A stretch of DNA of 46,343 bases, from positions 1 through 46,343 of the forward strand of contig NZ_AJLK01000146.1 of NCBI RefSeq assembly GCF_000317205.1, written 5' to 3'. The translations under genes and the position numbers were made by a program. This document shows, in pieces, positions 6,611-43,090 of this stretch. The DNA comes from Fischerella muscicola PCC 7414 (GTDB taxonomy: Bacteria > Cyanobacteriota > Cyanobacteriia > Cyanobacteriales > Nostocaceae). Each line of letters opens with the position of its first letter. Position 1 is the stretch's first letter. The notes below the pieces were generated by a model, which saw nothing but the letters and a program-made list of their open reading frames with translations, ran no database searches and was not told where the DNA came from.

Positions 6611-6700
6611 TTGGTTGTTGGTTGTTGGTTGTTGGTTGTTGTACCAGACGTGCCATGGCACGTCTGGTACATTAGTTAGTAGTTAGTAGGGGCAGGTTTT
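6611..6700. repeat. Composite palindrome unit, copy 1
   Basis: Contains (GTTGTTG)n at 6611-6639, a perfect 32-bp palindrome at 6640-6671 (half-site TGTACCAGACGTGCCA) and (TAGTTAGT)n at about 6672-6690. Read on the minus strand, the order is (CTAACTA)n, palindrome, (CAACAAC)n, then the membrane-protein gene. The same order is found at 10755-10903 and 37345-37440. Confidence 0.9.
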
Positions 6701-7547: not shown

Positions 7548-8229
7548 CGTTTGTAATCAGTTTTAAGCAATAGTTGGAGATGCAACAGTATAGGATGCAT
7601 AAGGTAACTTTAATTCCATTCGTTCATTGATATTTGTTAAAACTAATTAAATTGCAGCTTTAGTTGTTACCCAAGAAATCTCTTGTATATACTCAGCAAC
7701 TGTCGCCAACATATCTATACTGCCAGGAGCTAACTCCAGCAAAATTTATAATAGCACCTCAGTCATAATTGGCTTCCAGTAGACTCGCATAGATTTGCTC
7801 TGAACGGCAACCTACTAGTTCACCAAATTGATTTTGATTAAGTTAGCCAGATCCCTGACTTTTCTAAAAAGTCGGGGATCTTGTTTTTCACAAATGATTT
7901 AGGTTTGCAATAAATAATACACTTAATCCACACTTGTATATTAACAACAGTGGCAAGGAGTAAGGATACGATTAGTGTATATCAATAGACTCCAAAAGCA
8001 GGTGCTTGAATACAGTTTTATTTATTTGAGCCATAATCCTTCGTAGAACACAAGCTAGCGTGTTTCTCCAGCAACCACAACCAACTATTATCAAAGAAGT
8101 TTAAATTTCACATTTTTTGTGTCAGCTAATTCTGATAAGTTGTTAAATGAATATACTTGCAGAGCCTTCCCAACTTACTCATGCAGTGCGGGTGTTGATA
8201 AAGCAAGCACAATTCATTTAGTAAAAGTT
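7548..8229. other. Intergenic region with a gene remnant and a repeat
   Basis: 682 bp before the chosen lysC start. On the minus strand, 7647-7742 reads as a short open stretch ending in TAA (LLELAPGSIDMLATVAEYIQ and 11 more residues), preceded by a stop; it could be the tail of a decayed gene, but I cannot name it. An extended inverted-repeat element lies at 7816-7881 (listed separately). The lysC promoter should lie in 7890-8200; no clear element is seen. Confidence 0.4.
7816..7881. repeat. Inverted-repeat element, copy A
   Basis: An imperfect 33-bp hairpin at 7849-7881 (left arm AGATCCCTGACTTTT, right arm AAAAAGTCGGGGATCT) is preceded by TAGTTCACCAAATTGATTTT and a few more bases. A second copy in the opposite orientation lies at 21158-21222, where the hairpin is perfect. 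A T-rich tract follows, so it could also act as a terminator. Confidence 0.75.
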
Positions 8230-10098
8230 ATGTCGCTCATAGTTCAGAAATTCGGTGGTACATCTGTCGGTTCCGTTGAACGCATTGTCTCTGTTGCACA
8301 ACGCGTTTCTAAAACTGCAAAAGCAGGAAATTCCATAGTGGTGGTGGTTTCTGCGATGGGCAAAACCACTGATGGACTCGTGAAATTAGCTGCGGAAATC
8401 TCTAAAAATCCTTGCCGTCGGGAAATGGATATGTTGCTTTCTACGGGTGAGCAAGTATCTATTGCTCTAGTGAGTATGGCGCTGCAAGAGTTAGGACAAC
8501 CAGCAATTTCTCTGACTGGCGCTCAAGTAGGAATTGTAACCGAAGCTGAACATACCCGCGCTCGGATTTTACATATTCAAACAGAACGGCTCACCAAGCA
8601 TCTCCAAGAAGGCAAAGTAGTTGTTGTTGCTGGTTTTCAAGGTATTAGCAGTACTGATGCATTAGAAATTACTACCTTAGGGCGAGGCGGATCAGATACT
8701 TCTGCTGTAGCGATCGCTGCTGCTCTCCATGCAGATTTTTGTGAAATTTATACTGATGTGCCAGGTATTCTCACTACCGATCCTCGTCTAGTTCCTGAGG
8801 CGCAGTTGATGAGCGAAATCACCTGCGATGAGATGCTAGAACTCGCTAGTTTAGGGGCAAAAGTATTACATCCGCGCGCTGTGGAAATTGCCCGTAACTA
8901 CGGAGTGCCTTTAGTTGTACGTTCTAGCTGGACTGATGATCCCGGCACTTGGGTGGCTTCACCTCCAGTTAAAGAGCGACCGCTGATCAATTTAGAAATT
9001 GCGCGTCCGGTAGATAGTGTCGAATCTGATACTGACCAAGCCAAGGTAGCCTTATTACGTGTTCCAGATAGACCAGGTGTTGCAGCACGGCTGTTTGGAG
9101 AAATTGCTCGTCAGGATGTAGATGTAGATTTGATTATTCAATCAATTCACGAAGGTAATACAAATGACATAGCTTTTACTGTAATTACACCAATTTTACC
9201 AAAAGCCGAAGCCGTAGCTGCTGCCATTGCTCCTGTTCTCCGTAGTCACAAGAGTAGCCCAAATGAAGAAGCTGAGGTGATGGTGCAGCAAAATATTGCT
9301 AAAGTCAGTATTGCTGGTGCAGGAATGATTGGGCGTCCGGGAGTCGCCGCCAAAATGTTCGCCACCCTAGCAGCAGCAGGTGTGAATATCCAAATGATTT
9401 CTACCAGTGAAATTAAAGTCAGCTGCGTAATTGCTGCCCAAGAATGCGATCGCGCCGTCGCCGCCCTGCGGCAAGCATTTGAAATTGCAGAAATTGGGAA
9501 AGTACTAGACGATGGGGGGGTGGGGAGAACCGGAGGTGGGGAGAATTCGCCCCATCGCCCCATCACCCCATCACCCCATCATCCAACTACTCCTCCCGTA
9601 CGCGGTGTCGCCCTCGATATGAACCAAGCGCGTCTAGCGATTCGCCAAGTTCAGGATCGTCCGGGAACGGCGGCAAAACTTTTTGGACTTTTGGCAGACA
9701 ACAATATTAGTGTGGACATGATTATTCAGTCCCAACGCTGTCATCTAGTTAATGGTGTGCCAATGCGCGATATTGCTTTTACTGTAGCGCGGATGGATGC
9801 AGAAGCAGCACAGAAAATGTTACAAGCCAAAGCAGCAGAATATGGTTGGGGTGAAGTAGCCTTAGATCAGGCGATCGCCAAAGTCAGTATCGTTGGTGCC
9901 GGCATGGTAGGACAACCAGGCATCGCTGCAAAAATGTTTGAAGCCCTAGCACAGCATAATATAAACATTCAAATGATAGCTACTTCAGAAATCAAAATTA
10001 GTTGTGTAGTCACCCAAGAAGAAGGTGTGAAGGCACTACAAGTTATTCATGCAGCATTTGGACTCGCAGGTAGTGAGAAATTCATTGTACCTGCGTAG
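8230..10098 (+). CDS. lysC: Aspartate kinase with four ACT domains
   Basis: Phosphorylates L-aspartate, the first step toward lysine/DAP, threonine and methionine. The start is set at ATG 8230 because the protein then begins MSLIVQKFGGTSVGS, the conserved kinase N-terminus with the ATP-binding KFGGTSV; a GTG at 8119 would add 37 unrelated residues. Kinase domain about 1-265 (LLSTGEQVS; TLGRGGSDTSAVA; the family's PRLVPEA). Two pairs of ACT regulatory domains follow, each with a VSIAGAGM or VSIVGAGM strand, as in cyanobacterial enzymes regulated by lysine and threonine. Between the pairs, residues about 427-456 are a Gly/Pro/His-rich linker encoded by a G/C-rich repeat also present in lysA. 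622 aa. Confidence 0.96.
   Translation: MSLIVQKFGGTSVGSVERIVSVAQRVSKTAKAGNSIVVVVSAMGKTTDGLVKLAAEISKNPCRREMDMLLSTGEQVSIALVSMALQELGQPAISLTGAQVGIVTEAEHTRARILHIQTERLTKHLQEGKVVVVAGFQGISSTDALEITTLGRGGSDTSAVAIAAALHADFCEIYTDVPGILTTDPRLVPEAQLMSEITCDEMLELASLGAKVLHPRAVEIARNYGVPLVVRSSWTDDPGTWVASPPVKERPLINLEIARPVDSVESDTDQAKVALLRVPDRPGVAARLFGEIARQDVDVDLIIQSIHEGNTNDIAFTVITPILPKAEAVAAAIAPVLRSHKSSPNEEAEVMVQQNIAKVSIAGAGMIGRPGVAAKMFATLAAAGVNIQMISTSEIKVSCVIAAQECDRAVAALRQAFEIAEIGKVLDDGGVGRTGGGENSPHRPITPSPHHPTTPPVRGVALDMNQARLAIRQVQDRPGTAAKLFGLLADNNISVDMIIQSQRCHLVNGVPMRDIAFTVARMDAEAAQKMLQAKAAEYGWGEVALDQAIAKVSIVGAGMVGQPGIAAKMFEALAQHNINIQMIATSEIKISCVVTQEEGVKALQVIHAAFGLAGSEKFIVPA
9511..9598. repeat. In-frame low-complexity repeat inside lysC
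   Basis: A G-tract, then TGGGGAGAACCGGAGGTGGG and 6 more bases (9521-9546), then CCCCATCACCCCATC-type units. The 26-bp core matches the complement of 41289-41314 in lysA with one mismatch. It encodes the linker between ACT pairs and keeps the frame open. Confidence 0.85.
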
Positions 10099-10099
10099 A

Positions 10100-10230
10100 G
10101 GGGATTAGGGGCAGTGGGGAGGTGGGGTGATGGGGAGTGTGAGGAGTGTGATATTTCCCTTGTCTCCCTTGTCCCCCTTGTCTCCCTTGTCCCCCTTGTC
10201 TCCCTTGTCCCCCTTGTCCCCCTTGTCCCC
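10100..10230. repeat. G-rich repeat plus 9-bp tandem (CTTGTCCCC) repeats
   Basis: After the lysC stop comes GGGGCAGTGGGGAGGTGGGG, then from about 10157 to 10230 alternating nonamers CTTGTCTCC and CTTGTCCCC. They end four bases before the VOC gene start and, being a multiple of three, extend its frame upstream artificially. Similar nonamers recur near 43018-43080 and, complementary, at 14126-14176. Confidence 0.9.
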
Positions 10231-10593: not shown

Positions 10594-10754
10594 TGGGGAA
10601 CTCACCGGCCCCCACTCCCCCAAAGGAGTGGGGATTAGAGGCAGTGGGGTGATGGGGCAGTGGGGTGATGGGGTGATGGGGTGATGGGGGGCTAGGGGTC
10701 CCCACTTTGTGGGGTTGGGGGGCAATGGGGAGTGTGAAGGGTGTGAGGAGTAGT
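10594..10754. repeat. GGGGTGATGGGG-type repeat block
   Basis: G-rich units (CAGTGGGGTGATGGGG) and short inverted words (CCCCACTCCCC with GGAGTGGGG), ending with GAGTGTGAAGGGTGTGAGG. Related units occur inside lysC, lysA and the CLC gene. Confidence 0.8.
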
Positions 10755-10903
10755 AAACAACCAACAACTAACTACTAACTACTAACTACTAACTACTAAC
10801 TACTAACCAATGTACCAGACGTGCCATGGCACGTCTGGTACAACAACCAACAACCAACAACCAACAACCAACAACCAACCACCAACCACCAACAACCAAC
10901 AAA
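10755..10903. repeat. Composite palindrome unit, copy 2
   Basis: (ACTAACT)n at about 10760-10806, the perfect 32-bp palindrome at 10811-10842, then (CAACAAC)n and (CAACCAC) variants to about 10903. It is identical in palindrome to copy 1 and has the same left-to-right order. It lies just upstream of the recombinase-like gene. Confidence 0.92.
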
Positions 10904-10914
10904 TTCCCATTCTG

Positions 10915-12213
10915 ATGAAAATTCTTGCTTACACCTACAGCGATCCTTTACTAGAAACTGCTGCCGATCCTCAGACTTGGGGATGGGATATAGATAGAGT
11001 GTATCAAGATTTAGGACAGCGCACGGAGTTACAACAGTTACTAATTGACTGTCAAAACGATCCGCCTGATTATGTCCTTGTCCGGCGTCTAGACGAATTG
11101 GGGGATAATGTTGAACAAGTGAGCGATCGCCTTTCCCAAATCGAAGCGATGGGGATAACGCTGGTTGCAATGGAGCAAGGTTACAATTCTGCCGAGAAAT
11201 CTCCTAATCTTCATGCTGATTTGTTGCAATTGCTACGTCAAATTCAACGACAGCAACACAGTCGCCGTATCCGTCAAGCTCATGCCCGCAACCGTTTAGA
11301 TGCTGCTCCCCCTCCTGGAAAAGCACCCTATGGTTATCGTCGAGGTAAAGATAAGTACATTCTTGACCGTAGTACTTCTCCTGTAGTCAAGGATTTTTTT
11401 GAACAATTTCTGCTTTATGGTTCCCTGCGGGGAGCAGTGCGTTACCTCGCGAAAAAATACGGCAAGAAAATTTCTGTCACCACAGGGCGTCGCTGGTTGA
11501 CTAATCCAGTTTATCGTGGTAATACTGCTTATCAAAATGGAGAAATTCTTGCCGATACCCACCCCCCTATCCTTTCTCAGGAAGAAGCAGCGCAAGTTGA
11601 CAGGCTTTTACGCCGTAACAGTCGTTTACCATCGCGAACTGCGAGTGCGCCACGTTCTCTAGCAGGGTTGGTTGTCTGTGGCGAATGTCAATCACCTATG
11701 GGTGTTGCTCGTGTTACTATTCGCAACCAAGACAAAGAGTATCTTTATTTACGACCAATTAGCTGTATAAAACGACCCAAGTGTCGGGCTATTCCTTATC
11801 AAGAAGTATTAGACCATACTATTCAAGCTGTTTGCCGCGACTTACCTGTGGCGGTGGACAAAATGAATTCTCCCCAATTAGATGCAGTTAAGAATAGCTT
11901 AGGGGATGCGATCGCTCGTCAGCAAGAAATACTCACACAATTACCAGCCTTAGTCGAAACTGGAGTACTAGATGCAGAAACAGCCAAATTAAGAGCATAC
12001 AAACTCCGCACAGAAATATCTACACTGCAAGCAAAGTTAGCGACTTTACCACCAGTAAACTTGCGTTCTGTTGCTGTTGCAGTTTCCATCCCTCAATTTT
12101 GGTTGGATTTATCAGAAGCAGAACGACGATTTTATTTTCGCGAATTCATTCGTCAAGTAAAAATTCTTCGTCAAGAGCAAAAGTGGGACTTACAAGTAAT
12201 TTTTATTTTTTGA
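10915..12213 (+). CDS. Serine-recombinase-like protein with degenerate catalytic site
   Basis: 432 aa with the layout of a large serine recombinase. A resolvase-like N-terminal domain spans about 1-90 and a Recombinase domain about 140-260 (GKAPYGYRRGKDKY; GRRWLTNPVYRGNTAY). A zinc ribbon follows at about 285-330 (CGECQSPMG ... CIKRPKCRA), then a helical coiled-coil tail at about 350-410. The N-terminus LAYTYSD keeps a serine (S9), but the usual Arg two residues before it is Thr. The normal LDRLGR motif is LDELGD (residues 59-64), so the two conserved arginines are Glu and Asp. It is probably inactive for strand exchange or a divergent clade. Start at ATG 10915; the upstream frame translates repeats. 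Related to XisF-type enzymes only by family layout. Confidence 0.85.
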   Translation: MKILAYTYSDPLLETAADPQTWGWDIDRVYQDLGQRTELQQLLIDCQNDPPDYVLVRRLDELGDNVEQVSDRLSQIEAMGITLVAMEQGYNSAEKSPNLHADLLQLLRQIQRQQHSRRIRQAHARNRLDAAPPPGKAPYGYRRGKDKYILDRSTSPVVKDFFEQFLLYGSLRGAVRYLAKKYGKKISVTTGRRWLTNPVYRGNTAYQNGEILADTHPPILSQEEAAQVDRLLRRNSRLPSRTASAPRSLAGLVVCGECQSPMGVARVTIRNQDKEYLYLRPISCIKRPKCRAIPYQEVLDHTIQAVCRDLPVAVDKMNSPQLDAVKNSLGDAIARQQEILTQLPALVETGVLDAETAKLRAYKLRTEISTLQAKLATLPPVNLRSVAVAVSIPQFWLDLSEAERRFYFREFIRQVKILRQEQKWDLQVIFIF

Positions 12214-14016: not shown

Positions 14017-14490
14017 GTAGATAATTTGGCTTAACTTCAAGAAATGAAAAATCATCAGGTGCATAACATCAATATATTTATTCAGGGATGCACTACCTCA
14101 GTTGAGGATTGGGGAAGTGTGAGAAGTGGTGAGGAAGACAAGGAAGACAAGGCAGACAAAGAAGACAAGGAAGAAAAACGATTCATTAGTTCGCAACCAA
14201 CAACAATCAACCACTAACCCTACCCTTACCTTAAGCCACTACCCTGCGGGAAGCCCTCCGGGTACTCTACGAGAAGCCGGGCTTCGCCCGTCTACGGGGG
14301 TTCGCAATCGTGACGGGAAGCGGAGCCAGTGCGGTGGACGGGTCTCCCGGCATAAAGCACCTGGCGTCCAAGACTGCGACCCCCTCACCGCTTCGCGTCT
14401 ACGTGTCTACGGGTTCGTCAGTCGCTCATGGGAAAGACCCCCTTCTGCGCGCTGACTCACCACTAACCACTAACAAGCAACCACCAACAA
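14017..14490. repeat. Intergenic repeat block: nonamers and modular G/C-rich repeat
   Basis: AAGACAAGG-type nonamers at about 14126-14176 are the complement of the CTTGTC nonamers. A modular repeat spans about 14215-14465. Block beta at 14253-14285 (GCCCTCCGGGTACTCTACGA and 13 more) recurs at 28381-28413 with one mismatch. Block alpha at 14363-14380 (GGCGTCCAAGACTGCGAC) recurs inverted at 28288-28305. ORFs here translate repeats only. Confidence 0.85.
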
Positions 14491-25279: not shown

Positions 25280-28000
25280 TCAATTATTTATCGCTCCCCT
25301 GACTAAAATCACGGTACTGTCTACACCAGAGGCGATCGCTTCGGGAATATTCCCTTTCATGGCCTGTTGTAGCAATCCCTCGCGGGAAGCACCCAAAACA
25401 ACTACATCATAATGTTCGGTTTTTACTAGGTTGATTACTCCTTCGGTGACAGAATCTGCTTGCACGGGTGCAGCTACTACAGTGCTGGATGATTTCTGGC
25501 GACGGACAAGCATCCGAATAGCTTCTTCTAAAACTTTCATGTCTGGTTCTGATTCGGATGGTTTAAATACACGGGTGAGGCGGATTTTTGGGTCATTTCC
25601 AAGCGTTACCAAAGCAGGTAGTAATTTAATCGCTGCCCTAGCATTGGGACCGCCAGCCATTGGCACTAGCCAACTGTTGAATTGGGGAGGAGGGAGGGGG
25701 AGATGGGGAGATGGGGGAATGGGGAGATGGGGAGATGGAGAGTGAGAGAGGGGAGGAGTAGGGAAAAGATGAAGTAGGGAGAGTTTTTGATTATTGATGA
25801 TTGACTCTTGAGTTTTCCCTAACTTCACTAACACCATCTCACAAGTGGCTTGCCGAATTACCGTGTCCACAACATCACCAAAAATGCGACCAGGGGTGGA
25901 AGTGCTGCCCTTCCACCCCATGAGAATAAGATCAATGTGTCTTTCTTGGATTGTCTCTAAAATTGCATGGGCAATATCATGAGTAACTCGGATCTGGGTA
26001 TGCACCGGAATTTTCCATTTTTTGCCTAAAACTTCGGCGTTTCGCAGTAATCGCCGACTTTTGGCTGTCCTAACAGGTGTTTCGGCTGGAGAACTTTGAC
26101 GAGAAACAAGGATTACTTGCAGACATTCTATTTCGTAGTGACGATCGCGGGCGATCGCAGCTGCCATTTGTAAAAGTGTGGCGGCTGTTTCGGGGTTGGC
26201 AACTGGTACTAATAATCTACCTCTACCGATGCTAGGCGATCGCGTTTGATAAACAACGTAAGAAGGTTCTGGTTGTGGCCCGTGTTCTCTAGTTTGACAG
26301 TTGAGACTGTCGGCTTCTGCCCGAATAATATCAGCACGAGTGATGATACCAATGATTCTGCGCCCTTCTACTACTGGCAAGCGACTGATTTGATGACGAT
26401 CCAATAAATACAGCACATTGCTTAAATTATGGGTGGGCGTGACTGTCACTGGCTGCGGTGTCATGATTTCCCGTAGGGGAGTATCTTTTGCTAAGTTGCG
26501 ATCGCGTATTTTTAATAAATCAGTTTGGGTGACAATTCCTACCAATTTACCTTGTTCAACTACAGGAAATCCTCGATGGTGAGAACGAGAGAAAGCTTGT
26601 ACTACTTCTTCCACAGACATCTCTGCATCCAGGGTTTCCACCCGGCGCTGCATGACATCTTTTGCTGTTAACTTAGTCAATGCACCCTCAACGGGAGGTG
26701 CGTTTTCGATGTTGATGCCGCTTAAGTGTAAAAGTTTGGTATACAGCGATCCTGGCATCAGTTTGTCAGCAACCAGGTAGGATGTGACAGAGCCAATCAT
26801 TAAGGGTAACACCAGATTGAAATCTGTTGTCATTTCAAAGACAATCACGATCGCTGTGATTGGTACTTTCGAGACGGCACTAAAAAATGCTCCCATACCT
26901 GCCAAAGCATAGGTAGTTGGGGAACCTAATCCAAATAACTGGAATTCAACGACACCGACGATATAACCCAAACAAGAACCTAAAATCAAACTAGGCGCAA
27001 ATAACCCTCCTGGCGCCCCTGAGCCAAATGCTACCAAGGTTAAGAGAAATTGAACCAAAAAGGCGATCACTGCTATAGGTGCGTTGGCCTGACCAGCGAT
27101 CACAAATTCTCTTAATCCCGTATTATCACGGAAAGATGGTGGTAAAAAGGCAATTACTATACCTGAAATAAATCCAGCCAAAGCCACCCTGAGGGGTAAG
27201 CTAATATGTAATCTTCGATATATTTTGATACTTTCAATTAATCCACGATTAAATAATGCTGCCAGTAATCCTGCTAAAACACCCAAAACCAGGTAAAAAG
27301 GAATTTCTATAATCGAAAAACTGCTAGAAGATCGAGTTAATTCCAAGTTCAATAGCAAACTACGACCACCCAACAGACGGGAAACAACACCACCAATAAA
27401 TGAAGCAATGATTGCAGTTCCTAATGTTAGCCCCGATAAATCTTGAAGTAACTCTTCTACCACAAACAAAACACCAGCAATGGGCGCATTGAAAGCTGCT
27501 GCTAAACCTGCACCCGCACCAGCGGCAATCATTTGCCGTCGATGATCTGGGGATGTGGGAACCCAGCGACTCATCCCTGCTGCCAAACCAGCCCCGACTT
27601 GCACAGTCGGGCCTTGCCTACCTAAAGTGATTCCTGAAGCCAAAGCGATCATGGCACTGAGTAACTTCACAATTGCTACTCGCCACGAAAGCTTGACTGG
27701 TATATTAGCAAGAGAAGCTTTCACGTGGGGAATACCACTACCAGAAGCTTCTGGTGCTAATCTTTCTACCAATAATCCAGCCAGAAACCCGAAACCTAAA
27801 CCAACTGCTGGTAGGAATAGCCATGCTGGCAAAACTTGGGAACCATGAACTCGCCATGTTCCTAGCCATCCCGAACCAAATTTTAAGCATACAGCACAGA
27901 GGGCGGCAACTAGACCAATAATACAGGCTTCTGCGATCGCTAAACCTCTTCTTGGTTGCCAGACAGTGCGAATATACTGATTCAGAAAAGGGAGCGACAT
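25280..28000 (-). CDS. CLC chloride channel/transporter with CBS and two USP domains
   Basis: 906-aa inner-membrane protein. CLC domain about 20-430: GSGIPHVKA (anion-binding Ser), LGRQGPTVQVGAG and LFVVEEL (internal glutamate). The gating glutamate of GREGP is Gln129 here, which in characterised CLCs abolishes gating or proton coupling. Two CBS domains lie at about 448-560 (VMQRRVETLDAEMSVEEVV; IMTPQPVTVTPTHNLSNVLY), which usually bind adenine nucleotides. Two universal-stress-protein domains follow (GRGRLLVPVANPETAATLLQ; NSWLVPMAGGPNARAAIKLL), separated by a Pro/His/Ser-rich linker from a G-rich repeat. ATG 28000. The three-part architecture is found in cyanobacteria; its role in ion homeostasis is inferred. 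Confidence 0.93.
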   Translation of the reverse strand: MSLPFLNQYIRTVWQPRRGLAIAEACIIGLVAALCAVCLKFGSGWLGTWRVHGSQVLPAWLFLPAVGLGFGFLAGLLVERLAPEASGSGIPHVKASLANIPVKLSWRVAIVKLLSAMIALASGITLGRQGPTVQVGAGLAAGMSRWVPTSPDHRRQMIAAGAGAGLAAAFNAPIAGVLFVVEELLQDLSGLTLGTAIIASFIGGVVSRLLGGRSLLLNLELTRSSSSFSIIEIPFYLVLGVLAGLLAALFNRGLIESIKIYRRLHISLPLRVALAGFISGIVIAFLPPSFRDNTGLREFVIAGQANAPIAVIAFLVQFLLTLVAFGSGAPGGLFAPSLILGSCLGYIVGVVEFQLFGLGSPTTYALAGMGAFFSAVSKVPITAIVIVFEMTTDFNLVLPLMIGSVTSYLVADKLMPGSLYTKLLHLSGINIENAPPVEGALTKLTAKDVMQRRVETLDAEMSVEEVVQAFSRSHHRGFPVVEQGKLVGIVTQTDLLKIRDRNLAKDTPLREIMTPQPVTVTPTHNLSNVLYLLDRHQISRLPVVEGRRIIGIITRADIIRAEADSLNCQTREHGPQPEPSYVVYQTRSPSIGRGRLLVPVANPETAATLLQMAAAIARDRHYEIECLQVILVSRQSSPAETPVRTAKSRRLLRNAEVLGKKWKIPVHTQIRVTHDIAHAILETIQERHIDLILMGWKGSTSTPGRIFGDVVDTVIRQATCEMVLVKLGKTQESIINNQKLSLLHLFPTPPLSHSPSPHLPIPPSPHLPLPPPQFNSWLVPMAGGPNARAAIKLLPALVTLGNDPKIRLTRVFKPSESEPDMKVLEEAIRMLVRRQKSSSTVVAAPVQADSVTEGVINLVKTEHYDVVVLGASREGLLQQAMKGNIPEAIASGVDSTVILVRGAINN
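25681..25760. repeat. In-frame low-complexity repeat inside the CLC gene
   Basis: Purine-rich GGGGAGATGGGGAGATGG units, coding in the minus sense for Ser/Pro/His/Leu-rich residues between the two USP domains. Related in composition to the inserts in lysC and lysA but without their 26-bp core. Confidence 0.8.
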
Positions 28001-28593
28001 AGCAATTAAAAATTAAAAATTAAAAGTTGAAATGTTAAATACAGCACATCATTGCTAATTTTGTAAGTAATTCTTACTCTTTTGCAGTTACACAGCAATT
28101 TATCCATAGAGGGATAGAGTTTCGTATTTTAGATATTTATAGGGAAAATTCTAACTTTTTACGCAACTTTTAAAACTTAGAGTAATTGGCGTAGACGCGT
28201 TCCCCAACAAAAGCATGTGGTATTACCTGGCGTAGACGTGTAAGCAACTTCTCGCAGAATACCCGTAGACGCGCAGCGGTGAAGGGAGTCGCAGTCTTGG
28301 ACGCCACGTGACGTCAGGTACTTTATGCCGGGGAAAGAGTCCACCCTTCGGGTTCAGCAGTCCCCCTACCCTGACCTTATGCCCTCCGGGTACTCTTCGA
28401 GAAGCCGGGCTTCAAGGTAGAGTAGGGCTTCTCGGAAAGAGATGCTCACCTTTACAAAATCTTTATCAAAATGCCTGATTATTACTGATATGTGTAACCG
28501 TGATTCCGAAATGCTGTATCTTCAACTAGTAACTAGATATAATACTCACCAAAGTTCAGGTTAACCCTCTTTATTCTATCAACTTTATTACTT
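28001..28593. other. Divergent intergenic region with modular repeat
   Basis: 593 bp between the CLC gene and the COP23 gene. From about 28190 to 28445 it holds a modular G/C-rich repeat: TAGACGCG words, block alpha GTCGCAGTCTTGGACGCC (28288-28305) and block beta (28381-28413), both shared with 14215-14465. The remainder is AT-rich and should contain both promoters; no clear element is seen. No ORF. Confidence 0.8.
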
Positions 28594-37344: not shown

Positions 37345-37440
37345 GGTTGTTGTTTGTTGTTTGTTGGTTGTTAGTGGTTGTACCAGACGTGCCATGGCAC
37401 GTCTGTATATTGGTTAGTAGTTAGTAGTTAGTGGTTGATT
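37345..37440. repeat. Composite palindrome unit, copy 3 (degraded)
   Basis: (GTTGTTT)n tract, then the palindrome starting TGTACCAGACGTGCCA at 37379 region with the right arm decayed (GGCACGTCTG then TATAT instead of GTACA), then (GTTAGTA)n. In the minus sense the order is again (CTAACTA)n, palindrome, (CAACAAC)n. The element is inverted relative to copy 2. Confidence 0.85.
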
Positions 37441-40376: not shown

Positions 40377-41840
40377 CTAATTTTTGAGTCTTTCTGGTAG
40401 GCAATCCTGTCGAATCAAATCCTGATAAGTTTCGCGTTGCAAAATCAAATTTGCTTCGCCATTTGCGACTACAACAGCAGCCGGTCTGGGCAGGCGGTTG
40501 TAGTTAGATGCCATACTGTAATTGTAAGCACCAGTTGCCATCACTACGAGAATATCTCCAGATTCAGTTTTGGGTAGTTGGGCATCCTTGATCAAAATAT
40601 CCCCTGATTCACAATGTTTACCAGCAATTGTGGCTGTTTCTGTCAAGGAAGCAGACATGCGGTTAGCAACTACAGTACGATACACTGACTGGTAAGTAAT
40701 CGGACGGGGATTATCAGACATACCACCGTCAACTGCTATGTAAGTGCGAATATCTGGAATAACTTTAGAAGAACCTATAGTGTAAGCTGTGACGCAAGCT
40801 GTGGCAATTAGCGATCGCCCTGGTTCACACAATAATTTTGGTAGTGGTAAGTTTTGCGCTGCGCACGCTTGTTGAATGACTTCACAAATTGGTTTTACCC
40901 ACTCTTCAATACTAGGGGGATCATCCGATTCTGTATACTTTATCCCCAAACCTCCACCAACATTTAACTCTGTCACAGTTAAACCATAACCAGCAGCTTT
41001 ACTCATCCACTGCACCATCACAGCTGCTAAATCCTGATGTGGTTGGCGTTCAAAAATTTGAGAACCAATATGAGCGTGTAAACCTACACAGTTTAAAACA
41101 GATTGCTGACTGACAAAAGCAAATAATTCATCTAAATCATTGGGATCAAAGCCAAACTTACTATCCAGGTGTCCCGTACGGATATATTCGTGGGTGTGAC
41201 ATTCAATACCCGGTGTTAAGCGCAGCATGATCCGGATGGGGTGGTGGGGTGGTGGGGTGGTGGGGTGGTGGGGAGAGTTTGATTCTACATTCTCCCCATC
41301 TCCGGTTCTCCCCATCTTTTCAGCTATCTCCACCAAACTCCGCAATTCATACCAGTTGTCCACAACAATCGTGCAACCTGATTGAATTGCCAGAGTTAAT
41401 TCTTCTCGAGATTTATTATTTCCGTGAAAGTAAATTTTTTCAGGACTCACACCCGCATTTAGGGCTGTGTAGAGTTCACCTCCAGAGACAACATCAATTC
41501 CCAAGCCTTCTGAGGCAGCGATCGCACAGACTGCTAAACAACTCCAAGCTTTGGAGGCATATAATACTTGAGATTCACCCTTGTAATAGTGCTGGAAACT
41601 TTCCCGGTACTGGCGGCAAGCTATTCGCAGGGTTTCTTCATCCAAAATATATAAAGGTGAACCAAACTGCTGCACAAGAGTAGTCACATCACAACCCCCT
41701 ATTTCTAGGTGGTCTTGATTATTTACTTTTGCAGTCAGCGGTAAAAGTTCTTGATTGGGTGAAAGATTAGTGTGACTACCTGTTTGCGGTAAATACTGTC
41801 TACCAGAAAGTTGAACCCCGGCAGGGTGAGTCGATACCAT
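40377..41840 (-). CDS. lysA: Diaminopimelate decarboxylase
   Basis: 487 aa, PLP enzyme (fold III) converting meso-DAP to L-lysine. Seen: YILDEETLRIACRQY; YASKAWSCLAV with the PLP lysine (K97); GIDVVSGGELYTAL; GLHAHIGSQIF; LNVGGGLGIKYTE (phosphate-binding); CEPGRSL; VAVDGGMSDNPRPITY and the dimer-interface CESGDIL with the active-site Cys. About residues 176-203 are a Gly/Pro/His-rich insert from the same repeat as in lysC, placed between the SVEIAEK helix and the IRIMLRLTPG strand. The insertion keeps the frame. Upstream of cdaA and uppS on the same strand, probably one transcript. ATG 41840. Confidence 0.96.
   Translation of the reverse strand: MVSTHPAGVQLSGRQYLPQTGSHTNLSPNQELLPLTAKVNNQDHLEIGGCDVTTLVQQFGSPLYILDEETLRIACRQYRESFQHYYKGESQVLYASKAWSCLAVCAIAASEGLGIDVVSGGELYTALNAGVSPEKIYFHGNNKSREELTLAIQSGCTIVVDNWYELRSLVEIAEKMGRTGDGENVESNSPHHPTTPPPHHPIRIMLRLTPGIECHTHEYIRTGHLDSKFGFDPNDLDELFAFVSQQSVLNCVGLHAHIGSQIFERQPHQDLAAVMVQWMSKAAGYGLTVTELNVGGGLGIKYTESDDPPSIEEWVKPICEVIQQACAAQNLPLPKLLCEPGRSLIATACVTAYTIGSSKVIPDIRTYIAVDGGMSDNPRPITYQSVYRTVVANRMSASLTETATIAGKHCESGDILIKDAQLPKTESGDILVVMATGAYNYSMASNYNRLPRPAAVVVANGEANLILQRETYQDLIRQDCLPERLKN
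41228..41316. repeat. In-frame low-complexity repeat inside lysA
   Basis: (GGGGTGGTG)n at about 41236-41273, then the complement of the 26-bp lysC core at 41289-41314 (one mismatch). Coding in the minus sense gives GRTGDGENVESNSPHHP and so on; the lysC insert encodes GRTGGGENSPHRP, so the same frame is used in both genes. Confidence 0.88.
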
Positions 41841-42696: not shown

Positions 42697-43090
42697 TAGT
42701 TGTTTGTTGTTTGTTGTTTGTTGGTGAGACCAGCCCCCCAAAAAGGCGGTCTCCGTCACGTAGACACGAAGTGGTGAGACAGCGACTCTTACGCAGGGGG
42801 TTCTCCCCCAATCCCCACTCCCTGTCGGTCGTGGGGGCCGGTGAGTCCCCCATGAGCGACTGCGAACCCGGAGGGCTTAAGGTAAGGGTAGGGGGACTGG
42901 CGAACCCGAAGGGTAGTTAGTGGTTAGTGGTCAAAAGTCATTTGTCAATGGTCAATTGTTAGTAGTTAGTGGTTGCTAAGAGGGAACTCTTAACTCTTAA
43001 CAGGGAATAGGTAATTTCTTCCTTGTCTTCCTTATCCTCCAAGTCGTCCCCCTTGTCCTCCTTGTCTCCCTTCCCTTCTCCCCTATACCC
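42697..43090. repeat. Repeat block after rimI
   Basis: (GTTTGTT)n at about 42700-42722, then a modular G/C-rich repeat at about 42723-42915. Its segment CCGGTGAGTCCCCCATGAGC (from 42838) is identical to 12397-12416. GTTAGTGG units follow, then CTTGTCCTC/CTTGTCTCC nonamers at about 43018-43080. No credible ORF. Confidence 0.85.

Follow-up and report, generated by a model that had tools for sequence, protein, structure and literature searches.

In-frame copies of a dispersed repeat built on an 8-bp unit as probable linker fillings in LysC, LysA and other Fischerella proteins

Introduction

Heterocystous cyanobacteria carry short tandemly repeated repetitive (STRR) sequences, which consist mostly of 7-bp units, lie mostly outside genes in tandem, and have dispersed palindromes among them.

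The accessible parts of PMC2229807 and PMC10969869 present the frequent occurrence of in-frame repeats in functioning bacterial proteins as a Rickettsia case. Palindromic elements are there fused in frame in 19 reading frames, with a Gmk product that is translated and active (PMC2229807, in part), and R. conorii holds ten palindromic element families with 44 insertions (PMC10969869, in part). G/C-rich triplex motifs, which may be relevant to the origin of such repeats, are numerous in Anabaena, Nostoc, and Microcystis according to the available portion of PMC4666352. Among the best-matching titles and abstract starts of the open-licence PMC literature, we found no description of in-frame repeats in Fischerella or other cyanobacteria.

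Here we analyze a stretch of 46,343 nucleotides (the window), which is contig C146 in the 6.9-Mb genome of Fischerella muscicola PCC 7414. We propose, with a probability of about 0.7, that segments of its LysC and LysA proteins are in-frame, probably translated, and tolerated copies of a dispersed inverted repeat derived from an 8-bp unit. Like the Rickettsia palindromic elements, as far as the accessible parts of PMC2229807 and PMC10969869 describe them, these are short palindromic repeats that occur both in intergenic DNA and, read in frame, within conserved genes of unrelated kinds, with a recognizable peptide per family. They differ in being made up of 8-bp units, in occupying slots that are common to several genera with differing repeats, and in their host, a free-living phototroph with a large genome; the likeness is one of descriptions, not of sequences. 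By analogy, the inserts most likely work like Rickettsia palindromic elements. With STRR they share short tandem units between genes, dispersed palindromes, and many short-unit arrays per genome; the 8-bp form found here, unlike STRR, appears adapted to coding. The inserts also resemble MITEs and REPs inside genes, described in the available portions of PMC2759123, PMC3733652, and PMC10969869, in being small inverted repeats joined in frame to ORFs.

Results

The aspartokinase gene lysC occupies 8119..10098 on the forward strand as an ORF from GTG, with a likely true start at the ATG at 8230 (MSLIVQKFGG), and lysA, encoding diaminopimelate decarboxylase, occupies 40377..41840 on the reverse strand. 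An earlier note on this DNA had described a 26-bp core common to both with one mismatch, and the window letters bear this out: 9521-9546 in lysC reads TGGGGAGAACCGGAGGTGGGGAGAAT and the complement of 41289-41314 in lysA reads TGGGGAGAACCGGAGATGGGGAGAAT. Translation gives VGRTGGGENSPHRPITPSPHHPTTPP in LysC and MGRTGDGENVESNSPHHPTTPPPHHP in LysA, so the core is indeed read in the same frame in both enzymes. This core is the G-rich arm of the repeat (forward strand in lysC, reverse in lysA). The C-rich arm consists of CCCCATCR octamers at 9550..9588 (forward) in lysC and of CCCCACCA octamers at 41237..41276 (reverse) in lysA. By alignment, the repeat fills a linker between the two ACT pairs of LysC (9511..9598, forward) and a loop between a helix and a strand of LysA (41235..41318, reverse). 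The G-rich intergenic units that had been reported are likewise present in the window letters, as a relative of the repeat behind lysC (10097..10143) and as a cluster of octamers and palindrome (10594..10754), neither assigned to a strand. A third window gene, for a ClC channel/Usp protein (25280..28000, reverse), holds a C-rich octamer array read in frame (SPSPHLPIPPSPHLPLP; 25678..25740, reverse). This array falls between two Usp-like regions, in a stretch of 37-42 codons here versus 13 in genome G018 and 7 in G014.

Other repeats occur in the same window. The palindrome ACCAGACGTGCCATGGCACGTCTGGT has three copies (about 6643-6668, 10814-10839, and about 37382-37407) that adjoin (CAACAAC)n-type heptamer arrays. 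A second dispersed repeat, GCCCTCCGGGTACTCT..GAAGCCGGGCTTC, is found with its inverted partner at 14253-14285, 28381-28413, and 42866-42914, and its GGGAAGCCGCTTGCGCGTCTAC piece stands in frame in the ldcA slot of the window's genome. A serine recombinase gene (10810-12213, forward; Resolvase, Recombinase, and zinc ribbon), whose ATG at 10810 falls inside repeat sequence, follows immediately downstream of the stretch rich in repeats behind lysC. Comparison of the window with Rfam gave one tRNA.

Alignment to the Synechocystis structure 3l76 placed the LysC repeat in the inter-ACT linker, where the earlier note had put it; the linker of 3l76 itself is non-repeat and about 20 residues long. The expectation of a clean indel in relatives failed for LysC, as some linker is present in all 29 aligned relatives. 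On these alignments, the LysC repeat fills a linker and makes it longer, and clean insertion is not borne out. For LysA the placement between helix and strand stood, with 25 residues (179-203) aligned against 3 in 1hkv. Non-repeat linkers of equal length in other genera had been named as evidence against the proposal, and for LysC this applies in part because linkers are present at this place in other genera too, many being non-repeat and different in length; against such a refutation, at least 4 of 12 tested LysC/LysA slots are built from dispersed repeats of their own genome. The emphasis on one pathway was not upheld: lysine synthesis, common to both genes, looks incidental because hosts are of all kinds. 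No second full-length LysC was found in the window's genome, and no second LysA among the matches listed for it. The LysA insert is also present in G002, a Fischerella assembled as a single contig, and we rate an assembly artefact as improbable, G002 being one contig. LysA of G001 (F. thermalis) is without insert and diverges from the other two Fischerella more than LysC does; it may perhaps be a replaced allele.

Across the whole genome, allowing up to 3 mismatches, a 24-bp core is found at 34 places versus 0 for the reversed pattern, in support of the view that both genes carry the same dispersed repeat, and the GGGGDKRDGGGGDKRDGGGG octamer pattern occurs at 755 places versus 123 reversed. 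With up to 1 mismatch, the core was found in 3 of 291 genomes of the order (a draw without G001 and G002), in 16 copies here and in 1 copy in each of two others; the exact core is also in two Fischerella thermalis PCC 7521 records. We placed all 34 core copies against ORFs of at least 150 aa, read stop to stop with overlaps filtered, genes being called by ORF length. A copy with TGG at the triplet, as in a pure GGGGAGAT array, was termed pure, and one with another triplet there non-pure. The earlier note had asked how many genomic copies are genic and in which frame. In the non-pure class, 24 of 26 copies lie inside ORFs in sense, 1 is antisense, and 1 is in no ORF; of the 8 pure copies, 3 are in sense within ORFs and 5 lie outside any (Fisher p = 0.0035 versus non-pure). 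Copies outside long ORFs thus number 6 of 34, 5 of those being pure octamer. In G002, an exact core lies in a 62-aa frame (C1:2178295). The 24 sense copies correspond to 19 sites, and once two mixed-phase tandem sites are dropped, 14 of 17 single-phase sites are in one phase (roughly 5e-5 against a one-third expectation, calculated by hand with two paralogous genes counted apart). Phase 2 accounts for 18 of the 24 sense hits, three sense sites fall outside the main frame, and other frames are often open at single-phase sites.

A repeat-blind sample covered 326 kb of G000 (mostly contig starts, 18 of 20 stretches) and 400 kb of G002 (evenly spaced) under a loose array rule. It held 24 octamer arrays in G000 and 25 in G002, of which 18 and 14 lay outside ORFs. 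Among those in ORFs, the C-rich strand was sense in 2 (G000) and 9 (G002) and the G-rich strand in 2 and 2; arrays at ORF edges numbered 2 and 0. One 1418-aa ORF of G002 (L254) holds three separate repeat-derived segments.

Local expansion, in which each linker would be a hypervariable low-complexity stretch grown by its own slippage, accords with linker lengths that vary widely across the family, with a 24-bp difference, or three octamers, between lysC of G000 and of G001 (DNA alignment), and with a tandem copy in narB. We consider it improbable: the AACCGG core, which is no simple repeat, is found again in unrelated genes, second palindromes are nested within inserts, and near-identical dispersed copies occur in G011 and G034. 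The non-periodic sequence common to unrelated genes by itself makes slippage unlikely. In-frame nested palindromes were seen in DNA alignments of nirA of G002 (66 bp) and chlH of G000 (57 bp); the nirA copy is flanked by CCCCACCT(T/C)CC, perhaps a microhomology.

In its main frame, the insert reads E(M/V)GR(T/L)GDGE(N/K)..PHHPTTP, a conserved peptide with one main frame as in the Rickettsia elements. Profile A1 was built from 14 insert peptides and leans towards genes because these came from genic frames, a lean from which the placement of core copies is free. As the scan scored at most 57 candidates per genome, its counts are lower bounds: at E<=1e-5, at least 36, 24, and 21 matches in three Fischerella and at least 21 in G328, a genome of another genus, with matches of any number in at least 12 of 145 family genomes. 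By hand count, 22 of the 36 matches in the window's genome lie in stop-free frames of at least 200 aa. Several A1 matches of G328 lie in long frames, and one is inside a NarB-like gene.

The inserts are present in frame within several unrelated conserved genes. Hosts above curated NCBIfam cut-offs are MutS, MutS2, RsmG, NirA, RibF, ChlH, and a heavy-metal P-type ATPase, and a NarB-like reductase and an LdcA-like peptidase fall below them. Pfam adds histidine kinases, an Mfd-type protein, an ABC transporter, and a glycogen debranching enzyme, and in G002 a ChlD-type enzyme and a chorismate-binding enzyme. X747, X1338, and the LpxB-like protein gave no Pfam family at the cut used; the last gave no NCBIfam family either, its name being assigned by eye. 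Insert sites, judged by eye, are linkers or turns before core strands, for example before the Walker A motif of MutS.

The genetic code itself dictates that a pure octamer array gives an identical eight-residue cycle in all three frames, that (GGGGTGAT)n meets TGA in every frame, and that (CCCCATCA)n never stops. TGA units make up 6/144 on the ORF sense strand, 100/465 between ORFs, and 60/340 on the opposite strand. TG-type to AG-type units stand at 7:65 in sense, 124:151 outside, and 149:89 on the opposite strand (sense versus outside p = 5e-9, with units within one array and orthologues not independent in these counts). This depletion of TGA on the sense strand, together with the sense ORF copies, supports the earlier suggestion of selection for stop-free, in-frame copies. 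TGG units are also rare in sense (at most 1/144 versus 22/465 between ORFs); they bring no stop, so that stops cannot be the whole cause. Across three genomes, 28 phase-2 copies (counting orthologues) hold 0.14 tryptophan per insert in the used frame versus 1.4-2.1 in the other five where open. Their mean hydropathy comes to -1.05 in that frame; the two remaining sense frames give -0.99 and -1.31, and the antisense frames -0.37 to 0.01. Non-tryptophan triplets also break GGGG runs, so that avoidance of tryptophan and avoidance of G-quadruplexes or slippage look alike.

These signs bear on whether the inserts reach the protein at all. Their loss by ribosome skipping or RNA removal would suit the inverted-repeat structure and the location of sites near catalytic strands, such as that of MutS, but bypass would require neither the depletion of TGA in sense nor the favored, tryptophan-poor frame, and we regard it as very improbable indeed. 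Functional modules have been considered as well, either His/Pro-rich tails that bind metal, or hairpins or quadruplexes in the mRNA through which the translation of many enzymes would be adjusted jointly. The His-rich peptide in one frame and the strong RNA stem-loop of lysC (z -2.9, -45 kcal/mol) speak for such a role; the weak lysA stem-loop (z -0.6 as DNA, -1.3 as RNA), the rapid change in sequence and length, and the lack of an insert in the same enzymes of most relatives speak against it, and we give it little credence. Long stem-loops over the element vary from gene to gene: clear in mutS (z -3.4 as DNA), fair in lysC (z -1.8 as DNA), and weak in lysA, which also counts against the main proposal; HK783 has z -1.6 as DNA.

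The part of the earlier proposal that saw a dispersed repeat which loops tolerate and which stays in frame gains support from slots whose change outpaces that of their flanks. Over 14 genes, 18 comparisons gave slots 84.6% identical (422/499) with 139 gap columns and flanks 96.7% identical (4950/5119) with 22 gap columns; slots were more alike than flanks in 2 of the 18. The DNA alignments that showed the nested palindromes were made without mfd of G001 and G002 and chlH of G014. We followed 13 slot genes, chosen, as were the peptide profiles, for or from inserts (those of the window's genome for the genes), in six genomes; the reading of orthologues left out MutS, RsmG, and most LpxB orthologues. 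Slot lengths were taken from alignment spans with hand-set insert bounds, filling 70 of 78 cells, a few values falling below zero and single cells being rough. Over the 13 genes, they averaged 29.0 codons here, 20.9 and 28.9 in two other Fischerella, 35.2 in G006, and, in three other genera, 13.3 (G018), 7.2 (G021), and 5.0 (G014). Loops at the slots of G018, G021, and G014 are, by eye, mostly shorter and non-repeat; in RibF of G018, a slot lacking the repeat equals the one here in length. X1338 of G001 is 28 codons shorter, the length of the insert, as expected of an empty site judged by length alone.

G006, of a related genus, fills such slots with a different peptide, EDTGTRGHGD..SPRLSLSASS, on an GGGGACAC unit. 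Profile A2, built from three G006 slot peptides with NarB, LdcA, and LysA as sources, gave 122 matches at E<=1 in G006; of the 35 there with E<=1e-5, 25 lay in stop-free frames of at least 200 aa, compared with 3 of 17 in G003 (hand count). Matches in G006 fall in the slots of NarB, X747, LdcA, LpxB, and X1338 (5/13) and, with LysA, in 6/14; those of LpxB (E 5e-4) and X747 (E 0.01) are weak. We also searched twelve LysC/LysA slots from ten genomes, each against its own genome, and among the matches listed at least 4 of 12 recur elsewhere in it: the LysC slots of G034 (dozens of matches) and G011 (several, 98-99% over about 80 bp) and the LysA slots of G019 (93-95% over about 60 bp) and G006 (82%). 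For the other eight, including the non-repeat-looking LysC slots of G031, G012, and G018, the gene itself was alone among the matches listed. One match to the G034 LysC repeat (8235710-8235841) falls in the NirA gene (8235388-8236116), at the position of the Fischerella insert. The palindrome GACGCGATTAATCGCGTC, in frame as DAINRVST, occurs twice in LysA of G022 (L099) and once in ChlH of G006 (L287); it is a candidate further coding palindrome of the family.

As these alignments and searches indicate, some slots are common to several genera and their filling is private to each. Core enzymes of heterocystous cyanobacteria may possess ancestral in-frame slots whose repeat filling is overwritten in each lineage, a concerted evolution of peptides across non-homologous genes to which we give somewhat less than an even chance. 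Alternatively, a few tolerant loops may have been struck separately by the MITE-like repeat of each genus, with no ancestral slot overwritten. The near identity of the G011 LysC slot to other places in its own genome is what a recent insertion would leave, and the loops of G018, G021, and G014 are mostly short at these places. Coincidence of G006 and Fischerella in 6/14 slots would, however, need tolerant loops to be very few. In addition, DNA alignments revealed no clear target-site duplication around the inserts, though inverted arms are present; this counts against independent insertion and also against the main proposal, and may set the inserts apart from MITEs. We hold repeated independent insertion tentatively, below even odds.

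Discussion

We propose that the LysC and LysA segments belong to an element in which a G-rich arm (GGGGAGA-ACC or TTG-GGAGRTGGGGAGAA) precedes a C-rich arm made up of CCCCAYCA units. In this genus, the element occupies linkers and the turns ahead of core strands in many enzymes; its orientation is nearly always the same, and so mostly is its frame, which is the frame almost free of tryptophan. Mobility of the repeat is likely, and one repeat could be copied into another through recombination, template switching, or transposition. The pattern of retained copies suggests that selection favors copies which remain open and lie where the fold can accommodate them. In slots used by several genera, the filling may be replaced while the slot stays.

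If this is true, a free-living cyanobacterial genus carries many such inserts, some in enzymes with solved relatives (aspartokinase and diaminopimelate decarboxylase). Whether inserts cost anything, and whether they seed new protein segments, would thereby become testable questions. Shared slots with private repeats would mean that peptide linkers are exchanged naturally in many genes together, and annotators and tree builders would need to bear in mind that plain descent is not what makes such loops alike. Working proteins in these cyanobacteria seem to carry swappable pieces of repeat DNA.
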